This document shows, piece after piece, positions 11,096 to 40,839 of a stretch of DNA of 64,000 nucleotides. Each line of letters begins with the position of its first letter. The stretch's first letter is position 1. Position numbers and translations under genes: made by a program. This DNA is from Halorubrum sp. DM2. Its GTDB lineage: Archaea; Halobacteriota; Halobacteria; Halobacteriales; Haloferacaceae. The stretch lies in assembly GCF_901686465.1 (NCBI RefSeq), contig NZ_LR594487.1:2989773-3053772 (forward strand), given 5' to 3'. The notes below the pieces were generated by a model, which did no database searches, was not told the origin of the DNA, and saw only the letters and a program-made list of their open reading frames with translations.

Positions 11096-11422
11096 GTGCG
11101 GTGGCGCGTGCCTGCTCGGCCGCGATGCGGCCGAGCAGCATGCGCGAGGGAGTCGACCGGTCGGAGCAACGCGGAGACCGGTCGACGAGGCTGGGGAGGT
11201 GTGAGGTGCGGTGCTGTTGTAAGGTGGGATTCGAAGGGGCAGTTGCGAGGCGGGCGCGGGCGTTCACGAGGGCAAAGCTCTCGTGAGCCAATCAGAACGC
11301 TCCGCGTTCTGATGACGACGCAAGCACCGCAAGGAGAGAGCAGAGCTCTCTCTCGTCATCACGAGATGCCGGAGTCGTCTCAAACGACCCGAGCGTGCGC
11401 CCACCTCGCGGCTGGGGCCTCG
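11096..11422 (+). repeat. Structured repeat R, copy 1 (candidate non-coding RNA)
   Basis: This is a 327-bp GC-rich block starting gtgcggtggcgcgtgcc and ending cgcggctggggc. Hairpins seen are a perfect 12-bp stem at 11112-11123/11127-11138 (loop gat), an 11-bp stem at 11152-11162/11176-11186, and a closing helix 11245-11257/11397-11409 (12 of 13 pairs). Inside the closing helix are short hairpins with three-base loops (cagaacgc/gcgttctg; gagagagc/gctctctc). Two more copies are at 39412-39672 and 40519-40839. Open frames across it are arginine-rich and look non-coding. Confidence 0.6.
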
Positions 11423-11570
11423 GTGGTCGTGTCGATCAGTGATTTACAAGCACGATTAAACGATCAAATAACTCTGTCAAAATGAATGGGGTCGGTCCTC
11501 AATAGAGCCACGGGTCCGCACTTCCTAATCGGCAGACTCGCTGGTAGGCGCTGAGAACGCGTTTGTGAGA

Positions 11571-11662: not shown

Positions 11663-12733
11663 TCATGCCGCGTCAAGTCGTTCAACGTACTCTGTTCGAT
11701 TCTCCATCCGATCGCGGTAGCGTCGCCACCGCTCCTTCTCAGACGCCCAGTCGTAGTGATCCGAGATCGTCTTCACCGACGCGTTGACGCGCTCGGCGAC
11801 GACCTCCGGCGGGATCCCGATGTTCAACTGCCAAGTGATCGAGCCCGTCCGGATCTGATGTGGCGACCGCGACGAGGGACACTTCGCCGCCTCGTGGTAG
11901 TCGACCCAGTCGCAGGTGTCCGGGTCCTTTCCGTGGGGGCAGGTGCCGTGAAGACACGGAATCGTCGCGCGGTAGCTCCACGCTCTGATCGTCGCCTCCC
12001 CGGCCCGACCCCTCGAACTCGCGAGCAACGGCTGTCTGCCGCTGTCGTCGCGGCTGTCGTAGCGATACTGTCCGACGTACTCGCTGAGGATACGCGCGAC
12101 TCGGTCCGGGATTCCGACCGGACGCTCGCCGCGGATCTTGTTCTTCAGCGGCGTCCCCGATTCCGGTCGGTGCCTGAACTCCACCCAACTCTGTTCGTCG
12201 TCATCGTCGAGGCGGATGTAGAGGTCGCGGACGTCGAGCCCGCGGAGCGCGCCCTGGCGGGCACCGGTGTACCACGCGAGTTCGAGGAACGCGTGGCGTC
12301 GACGGGCGCGCTCGGCGTCCGAGTTGCGGTAGTAGTTCAGCAGCGCGAGCGCCGGGTCCCGGTCGAGTGAGACCTCGCTCGACCGCTCGTCGGGATCGAG
12401 ATCGGGGATACGCACCGATTCGTGGAGCCCATCTCCGACGGCGTCGAGCTGTTCGAGGTACTCGACGAACATCCGGAGCGTCCACATCTCGCCTTCGAGC
12501 GTGACCGGCGCGATCTGGCTCGCCCGATGCTCGTAGTAGTCGTCGAAGTCGTAGCCGCGGAGCTCGCCGACCGACTCGATCTGAGCCTCCTCGGCCCACT
12601 CGCGGAAGAGCTTGAGGCGGTACTTCCACGCCTTCACGCTCGACTCCGTCGAGTCGGCGCGCCGGCGACGGAGATACCGGTCGATCGCCTCGCGGACCGA
12701 CAGCGCCGACGGCTCTCGGGAATCCCGGCTCAT
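11663..12733 (-). CDS. Tyrosine recombinase, integrase of the element
   Basis: A 356-residue integrase. An N-terminal SAM-like core-binding domain (about 15-115: SVREAIDRYLRRRRADSTESSVKAWKYRL) precedes a catalytic domain with Arg in TGARQGALRG (near 160), HQIR (His and Arg near 294-297), and a C-terminal DHYDW that should carry the nucleophilic tyrosine. It would integrate and excise the element at tRNA-Lys. It is the last gene of a chain reading from 13642; its ATG overlaps the stop of the 39-residue gene upstream by 4 bp (ATGA). The start at 12733 is fixed by that overlap and by the acidic start MSRDSREPSAL. Confidence 0.9.
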   Translation of the reverse strand: MSRDSREPSALSVREAIDRYLRRRRADSTESSVKAWKYRLKLFREWAEEAQIESVGELRGYDFDDYYEHRASQIAPVTLEGEMWTLRMFVEYLEQLDAVGDGLHESVRIPDLDPDERSSEVSLDRDPALALLNYYRNSDAERARRRHAFLELAWYTGARQGALRGLDVRDLYIRLDDDDEQSWVEFRHRPESGTPLKNKIRGERPVGIPDRVARILSEYVGQYRYDSRDDSGRQPLLASSRGRAGEATIRAWSYRATIPCLHGTCPHGKDPDTCDWVDYHEAAKCPSSRSPHQIRTGSITWQLNIGIPPEVVAERVNASVKTISDHYDWASEKERWRRYRDRMENRTEYVERLDAA

Positions 12734-12849
12734 TCTTCGGGCGGGATCGTCCCGTCGGAGCGCCGGCCGCAGGACGGGCAGGTGTAGCCGTTGACGAAGG
12801 CGTCGACGTGCCGATCGCAGTGGCCGCAGCGCCACAGCAGGTTCGTCAC
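12730..12849 (-). CDS. 39-residue zinc-ribbon protein
   Basis: Starts with GTG and reads MTNLLWRCGHCDRHVDAF..., then TCPSCGRRSDGTIPPEE. Two CxxC knuckles predict one zinc site. The stop overlaps the integrase ATG (ATGA), and its start overlaps the preceding gene's stop (GTGA). These couplings on both sides are the main evidence that such a short frame is translated. It may assist the integrase or bind nucleic acid. Confidence 0.7.
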   Translation of the reverse strand: MTNLLWRCGHCDRHVDAFVNGYTCPSCGRRSDGTIPPEE

Positions 12850-39391: not shown

Positions 39392-39400
39392 GTTTATAAA
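39392..39400. promoter_or_regulatory. TATA box between DJ-1 gene and repeat R copy 2
   Basis: tttataaat is a near-ideal archaeal TATA element. It lies about 20 bp before the first base of repeat R copy 2, placing a start site at the repeat's beginning, and 72 bp before the DJ-1 gene start on the other strand. It may drive either or both. Confidence 0.55.
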
Positions 39401-39411
39401 TAGGAACGGTA

Positions 39412-39672
39412 GTGCGGTGGCGCGTGCCTGCGAGCGGTCGCCACCGGCGACCGCGAAGCAGCACCGCGCGAGGGAGTCGACCGGTCGGAGCAACGCGGAG
39501 ACCGGTCGACGAGGCTGGGGAGGCGTGAGGTGCTGTGCGGTCGCGGTGTGGGGTGGGGCTCGAAGGGGCAGCCGCGAGGCGGGCGCAGGCGACGTAAGGA
39601 CCGCAAGGAACGAGCGAAGCGAGTGACTGAGGACCGCCCCGAGCGTGCGGCGTCCTCGCGGCTGGGGCTTCG
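39412..39672 (+). repeat. Structured repeat R, copy 2 (candidate non-coding RNA)
   Basis: This 261-bp copy starts gtgcggtggcgcgtgcc and ends cgcggctggggc like copy 1. Hairpin 1 is at 39434-39442/39446-39454 with a different stem sequence (gcggtcgcc/ggcgaccgc). Hairpin 2 at 39476-39486/39500-39510 is identical to copy 1. The conserved lines gaggctggggagg and ctcgaaggggcag are kept. The TATA box directly upstream suggests transcription as a discrete RNA. Confidence 0.6.
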
Positions 39673-39740
39673 ATAATCCTGATCCTGGTGCGATCAGTTC
39701 CGTCGTATCGATCCGAAAAAATATCGGAGACGCTCGTGTC

Positions 39741-40310: not shown

Positions 40311-40412
40311 GTCGCGGGTACTCGGGCGGATTAATAAAGCGTGGCGGTTGCGGGATCGAGGTGAGAGTCGATACCACGACGATACTGTGTGACTGGTCGC
40401 CCCACGGCCGAG

Positions 40413-40529
40413 ACCCCCGAAGCCCCGGTCAGTCGCTACGATGAAGCCAACCCTGTGACCGACACCCCCGAAGCCCCGGTCAGTCGCTACGATGAAGCCA
40501 ACCCTGTGACCGACACCCCCGAAGCCCCA
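40413..40529. repeat. 51-bp tandem repeat at the 3' end of repeat R copy 3
   Basis: Two exact 51-bp units start at 40413 and 40464, with a partial third at 40515. Each contains cccccgaagcccc, the complement of the cgcggctggggcttcg end of repeat R, so the tail of copy 3 has been duplicated. The unit length is a multiple of three, but the frame through it has no other coding sign. Confidence 0.75.
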
Positions 40530-40839
40530 GCCGCGAAGCCGTCAGACGCTCGCTGTCGTTCGAGACGCCGAAGGCGTCTCGTGATGACGAAACGGCTTCG
40601 CCGTTTCGAACCACGCGCCTCACTCGGTCGCTATCGCTCCCTCGTTCGGTGCTTACGTCGCCTCTGACGGCTTCGCGACTGCCCCTTCGAGTCCCGCCCC
40701 GCACCGCACAGCACCGCACCTCACGCCTCCCCAGCCTCGTCGCTCGCTCCGGGCTCCCTCCGGTCGCCCGTCCGCTCGCGACTCCCTCGCGCGGCGCTGC
40801 TCGGCCGCGAGGCGGCCTCGCAGGCGCGCGCCACCGCAC
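40519..40839 (-). repeat. Structured repeat R, copy 3 (candidate non-coding RNA)
   Basis: This minus-strand 321-bp copy has the same beginning and end as copies 1 and 2. The closing helix 40532-40546/40663-40677 is a perfect 15-bp pair with a sequence unlike the equivalent helix in copy 1. Internal hairpins are 40561-40569/40573-40581 (loop gaa) and 40588-40596/40600-40608. Hairpin 1 is 40803-40808/40812-40817. It lies 3' of the enoyl-CoA hydratase gene on the same strand. Confidence 0.6.

Follow-up and report, generated by a model that had tools for sequence, protein, structure and literature searches.

The genome of Halorubrum sp. DM2 contains a large family of dispersed intergenic repeats that share a common architecture: two hairpins (H1 and H2) and the block GAGGCUGGGGAGG form a 5' domain, and a core of ~125 nt lies 3' of it. 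The helices of this element are kept while their letters change, which argues that its shape is almost certainly under selection, and the same intergenic site is found in occupied and empty versions among Halorubrum species, which suggests past mobility. We give about an even chance to the explanation that the repeat is an ancient, dispensable, non-autonomous and formerly mobile dispersed element, with a putative transcript that is a structured RNA. The family was previously uncatalogued.

Three copies lie in the window, by which we mean the whole 64-kb stretch of DNA that was analysed. The original prediction described them as a repeat with shared linear blocks, three different stem sequences in hairpin 1, and a closing helix pairing at 12 of 13 positions in copy 1 and 15 of 15 in copy 3. 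The repeat is real, with refined ends; the blocks (GGTGGCGCG, GAGGGAGTCG, GAGGCTGGGGAGG, GAAGGGGCAG and GGCTGGGGC) and the three different H1 stems are present, and the closing-helix counts are about right. The three copies are, however, only three members of a family of ~137 in the genome, and the original prediction is corrected in that copy 2 represents the typical form, whereas copies 1 and 3 are atypical, with extra hairpins inserted. In the following list, A1 is an alignment of 40 copies, on which the covariance model R1 was built, and R2 is a model of the core, the part common to other families of the class Halobacteria.

11096-11426, plus strand: copy 1, 331 nt, atypical, with extra 3'-domain hairpins (linear blocks, folding, covariance model match G000:C1:3000868)
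11104-11145, plus strand: hairpin 1 (H1) of copy 1, from folding, with its own stem TGCTCGGCCGCG/CGGCCGAGCA
11152-11186, plus strand: hairpin 2 (H2) of copy 1, GTCGACCGGTC/GACCGGTCGAC, 9 of 9 arm pairs
11187-11199, plus strand: invariant block GAGGCTGGGGAGG of copy 1 (A1 alignment columns, three-copy comparison)
11222-11425, plus strand: core (3' domain) of copy 1 with inserted hairpins (R2 match, 46.8 bits)
39392-39399, plus strand: TTTATAAA, directly 5' of copy 2; two element-free related species have TTTAT here
39412-39675, plus strand: copy 2, typical full-length element (BLAST, A1 alignment, covariance model)
39420-39469, plus strand: H1 of copy 2, UGC-GA-GCGG.../...CCGC-GA-(A)GCA
39476-39510, plus strand: H2 of copy 2, 9 of 9 arm pairs
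39511-39523, plus strand: invariant block GAGGCTGGGGAGG of copy 2 (A1 alignment columns)
39551-39675, plus strand: core of copy 2 (R2 match, 122.6 bits)
40515-40839, minus strand: copy 3, 325 nt, with extra hairpins (linear blocks, covariance model)
40739-40782, minus strand: H2 of copy 3, 7 of 9 outer arm pairs
40726-40738, minus strand: invariant block GAGGCTGGGGAGG of copy 3 (three-copy comparison)
40517-40699, minus strand: core of copy 3 with inserted hairpins (R2 match, 75.6 bits)
40408-40528, minus strand: tail of copy 3, ~2.4 tandem 51-bp units, each with the element 3' end GGGGCTTCGG

The core helix forms 15 of 16 pairs in copy 1, 13 of 16 in copy 2 and 16 of 16 in copy 3, with different bases. 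The core of copy 2 consists of a G-rich leader, the closing helix, a GGG/GGG loop, a long covarying helix and three tandem GA/GA steps. The tandem units of the copy 3 tail match one another at 98% and are derived from the element 3' end; one to three such extra tail units follow ~40% of the copies of the family. According to Pfam, copy 2 has a DJ-1/PfpI gene on one side and a phosphoribosyltransferase (apt-like) gene on the other, and copy 3 lies ~20 nt past the stop of an enoyl-CoA hydratase gene in the same orientation.

Inserted core hairpin modules, such as TTCACGAG...CTCGTGA and GTTCGA...TCGTCATCACGA, recur across different copies and species (loci L097, L147 and L164, and copies 1 and 3 of the window). 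Within copy 1, ARAGORN predicts a tRNA-Ser (11324-11418, minus strand), which lacks Rfam support and is most likely a false positive produced by the repeat hairpins. The 390-aa ORF adjoining copy 1 (11663-12835, minus strand) matches no Pfam family at E 0.001; from visual inspection, it may encode an integrase-like protein bordering a variable region.

A BLAST search with copy 2 retrieved 41 matches in this genome. The R1 covariance model yielded at least 143 matches, corresponding to at least 137 distinct places in the 3.45 Mb once overlapping opposite-strand and short partial matches were removed; the E-values of the covariance searches rest on shortened calibrations. The strands are balanced (68/69 among the 137 places) and the median element length is 256 nt. 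A single structured, uncatalogued element makes up ~1% of the chromosome in a common haloarchaeal genus. For each copy, identity to its best match among the other copies has a median of 87.7% and never exceeds 93%, save for one pair (97.5% over 203 nt), and there is thus no sign of recent spread. Roughly one position in three does not vary among the 40 paralogues of A1, which requires either continuing constraint or homogenisation after insertion.

A covariance model search of haloarchaeal genomes, proposed as a check in the original prediction, detected the core (R2) in 312 of the 391 Halobacteria genomes examined, representing 74 of 86 genera. Among 247 genomes sampled across the phylum, all 33 positives belonged to the order of the source organism, and R2 found no core in the non-haloarchaea of that sample. 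The consensus of the core begins 5'-GGGYGGGA[C/A/T]U-helix 1-GGG-C-variable helix-GA-CG[C/U]AA-G[C/G]ACC-... and continues ...-GG[A/C][G/C]C-...-GA-variable helix-GGG-helix 1'. Outside Halorubrum, the 5' domain occurs as well, bearing GAGGCUGGGGAGG or a near variant, at locus L127 and in the left-hand copies at L126 and L299.

The repeat is patchily distributed among the genera of Halobacteria, some genomes having none and their relatives many. Matches number at least 136 in Hrr. distributum, 100 in Hrr. tebenquichense, 58 in Haloparvum sedimenti, 39 in Hrr. alkaliphilum, 37 in Hrr. saccharovorum, 26 in Halobacterium sp. KA-4, 17 in Halosimplex pelagicum, 14 in Halonotius aquaticus, 10 in Halogranum amylolyticum and one in Hrr. 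vacuolatum (all lower bounds), and there are none in the genomes of Halopenitus persicus, Haloplanus ruber and Halospeciosus flavus. The repeat has no match in phages, two exact repeat patterns had none in 2.9 million viral contigs, and plasmid records hold only a few copies, unannotated there; we therefore rejected a viral or plasmid-borne origin.

Covariation was assessed in A3, a MAFFT alignment of 30 cross-genus sequences that was not fitted to a structure and from which the structure was read off. In this alignment, 92.7% of the cells pair, compared with 67.0% in shuffles, 28 of the 37 pairs have changes on both sides, and double changes occupy 279 cells versus 94.5 expected. None of 500 shuffles matched the observed pairing or covariation score, and pairing was 44% or less when partners were slid by 1-3 columns. 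Two larger sequence sets agree with A3; being aligned to the model, they lean towards it. The arms of H2 are 95.2% Watson-Crick within a copy, versus 68.8% when left and right arms are taken from different copies. The compensatory change noticed in three copies in the original prediction is thus borne out at a far larger scale, and covariation held up once more copies were added. A functional RNA, as the repeat was called there, is what we would still infer rather than assert, because there are ~137 copies, some related genera have none, and single-stranded DNA could keep the same covariation.

Several interruptions are conserved inside the covarying helices across genera, namely, three GA/GA steps, an A-A mismatch and the GGG/GGG loop. 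The three opposed GA/GA steps are present in 30, 30 and 27 of the 30 sequences, a count free of the bias of one hairpin set that was picked partly by pairing and is illustrative; the base pairs flanking these steps vary with compensation. An L7Ae kink-turn was considered and set aside: tandem GA is present, and a 3-nt bulge with a matching C-stem was not established by eye. All four GGG tracts (two in the leader and one on either strand of the GGG/GGG loop) are present in 94 of 110 and 83 of 100 copies. We predict that these tracts could close into a G-quadruplex adjoining the closing helix, given the KCl-rich cytoplasm of haloarchaea, and the formation of an RNA G-quadruplex at such high potassium is directly testable. 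Among mismatches, G-U outnumbers A-C (44:22 and 36:17, each with p about 0.01), which lends modest support to the plus strand as the folded one. Folding energy carries no information on the strand, because copy 2 lies 3.0 standard deviations below shuffles and the opposite strand reaches -3.8.

All 128 placeable copies are intergenic, as judged with a simple home-made codon-bias gene finder, and none is overlapped by a coding-like ORF, which rejects a protein-coding repeat. The surrounding genes are convergent for 47 copies, tandem for 62 and divergent for 19. Convergent regions are over-represented (37% of sites versus 24% of element-free intergenic DNA, p = 0.0018) and divergent regions under-represented (15% versus 30%, p = 0.0001), a pattern consistent with either promoter avoidance or a role at gene ends.

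Under the second option, the repeat would serve the host as a non-coding RNA or 3'-UTR module, kept for a cis role at gene ends (termination, mRNA stability or insulating convergent genes from each other) or as a redundant RNP that acts in trans. We regard this as possible, if on the doubtful side. The convergent enrichment, the median distance of 31-47 nt after the stop codon where the upstream gene has the same orientation, the conservation of positions over species, and the conserved non-Watson-Crick motifs and G tracts would all be expected of such a module; a copy number that varies between 0 and about 136 from genome to genome, the opposite orientation of the upstream gene at 57 of 128 copies, and internal deletions in some orthologous copies of relatives, which imply that not all copies are constrained, would not.

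At two sites beside the apt-like gene, the protein of which is 99% identical to those of Hrr. tebenquichense and Hrr. trapanicum, the element occupies the same place and orientation in several Halorubrum species and is absent in others. Occupied sites are retained vertically: at the apt locus, many related species have kept the element in place, which resembles maintenance more than parasitism. Orthologous copies may have H2 in common while H1 and the core stems are wholly different yet still paired, and H2 of L097 differs from that of this genome by a double change from A-U to G-C.

In about a quarter of the copies, TTATAA is present 9-17 nt upstream of the 5' end. A 3' TTATAA accompanies 17 of the 29 copies with the 5' motif versus 20 of 101 others (odds ratio 5.7, p = 0.0001), and TTTATAA-like sequences flank a subset of copies on both sides. 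At the apt site of two related species lacking the element (L161 and L165), a single TTTAT is found. The paired flanks and the lone motif at the empty site are suggestive, though not proof, of a target-site duplication. We prefer this reading to a TATA box serving as the promoter of the element, because the spacing would put the transcription start inside H1 and because TTTAT occurs in the element-free relatives. Terminal inverted repeats, as expected of a MITE, are absent: in A1, the 5' end GTGCGGTGGCGCG and the 3' end GGGGCTTCGG are not mutually inverted.

PATEs, palindrome-bearing elements of Haloquadratum walsbyi (PMC3119063), resemble the repeat in being non-coding, multicopy, haloarchaeal and palindromic. 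A PATE relative in the form of a single-stranded DNA hairpin element mobilised by an HUH (IS200/IS605 TnpA-like) enzyme is a serious rival, although we consider it unlikely. The hairpins near both ends would suit such an element, and covariation is equally possible in single-stranded DNA, where it would be kept because the folded strand is the substrate. However, PATEs have near-terminal palindromes and terminal oligonucleotides in common with IS605-type transposons (PMC3119063), a link not seen here: unlike the similar PATE palindromes, the stems near the two ends of the repeat differ and vary freely in sequence, as judged from the A1 alignment and the published description of PATEs. The TTTATAA on both sides resembles a duplication, whereas target duplications are said to be absent from IS605-type elements, and none of the nine TnpB (PF07282) loci of the genome contains an R2 core match.

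The haloarchaeal IS200/IS605-associated omega RNAs (sotRNAs; RF02656, RF02657) are likewise structured non-coding RNAs tied to mobile elements, but they overlap the tnpB 3' end (PMC12558985), whereas the repeat lies several kb or more from the tnpB genes here, the nearest element being ~5 kb away, and has no Rfam match; this identity was rejected. The repeat was not recognised as a named RNA in the original prediction, and it is absent from Rfam 15, which in the window finds only a tRNA and with copy 2 gives one chance match of 17.8 bits, whereas the gathering score is 55. A literature search, light on subscription journals, returned no description of the repeat and no occurrence of its conserved strings in a haloarchaeal context.

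Among bacterial repeats, bcr1-bcr18 of the Bacillus cereus group (PMC3446304 and references therein) are interspersed, multicopy and intergenic, with a similar copy number; some have conserved secondary structure, they are often parts of UTRs, and some are MITE-like (PMC3446304). The repeat is also multicopy, intergenic and of conserved secondary structure; we claim no homology to bcr elements, from which it differs in belonging to another domain and in its larger folded core, class-wide range, strong inter-copy covariation and unlinked hairpin types. REP/BIME elements of bacteria are similarly numerous, intergenic and foldable, but they are palindromes of 20-40 bp (PMC3733652), far from the ~260 nt, the several helices and the tandem GA and G-tract motifs of the repeat.

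A further reading, which we hold to be improbable, is that of a class-wide archaeal RNA family with a G-quadruplex between two covarying helices and with stacked tandem GA steps, forming an RNP and spreading in an RNA-dependent (SINE-like) manner, with hairpins continually recombined among more than 100 loci.

In 97 parsed copies, identity in one hairpin has no predictive value for another; only 3 of 304 H2-identical pairs are also identical in the core stem (1.0% versus a background of 1.4%). Hairpins must therefore be exchanged between loci or arise repeatedly, and gene-conversion-like exchange of whole hairpins partly explains why both arms change at once. That DNA-level quasi-palindrome correction or gene conversion, and not structural selection, produced the double changes is hardly credible, despite the unlinked hairpin types and the great rarity of one-sided intermediates in A3, because correction has no reason to spare the GA/GA steps, A-A mismatch and GGG/GGG loop that survive inside otherwise perfect helices, and conversion cannot create different paired stems.

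If the repeat is a formerly mobile element, as we favour, the plus strand of each copy would encode a compact structured RNA, with the 5' domain preceding the core. Copies may have been spread by a putative enzyme supplied in trans that recognised the folded molecule, with TTTATAA-like sequence as the suggested target, and shape rather than sequence would be kept because it is read by the spreading machinery or a bound protein. Once inserted, copies would persist, swap hairpins with other copies by recombination, and tend to survive where promoters are uninterrupted, as between convergent genes or downstream of stop codons.

Among archaeal multicopy structured families, the repeat would be one of the largest. 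With well over 100 paralogues per genome that have one shape and different stems, it offers a natural experiment, and its copies are concrete candidates for tests of transcripts, protein partners and mobility.

Neighbouring copies in minus-then-plus order are numerous in two genomes (G053 and G064). At L126 and L299 of G053, a full-length and a core-only element form divergent pairs, back to back, with the 3' ends outward and ~170-180 bp between them.
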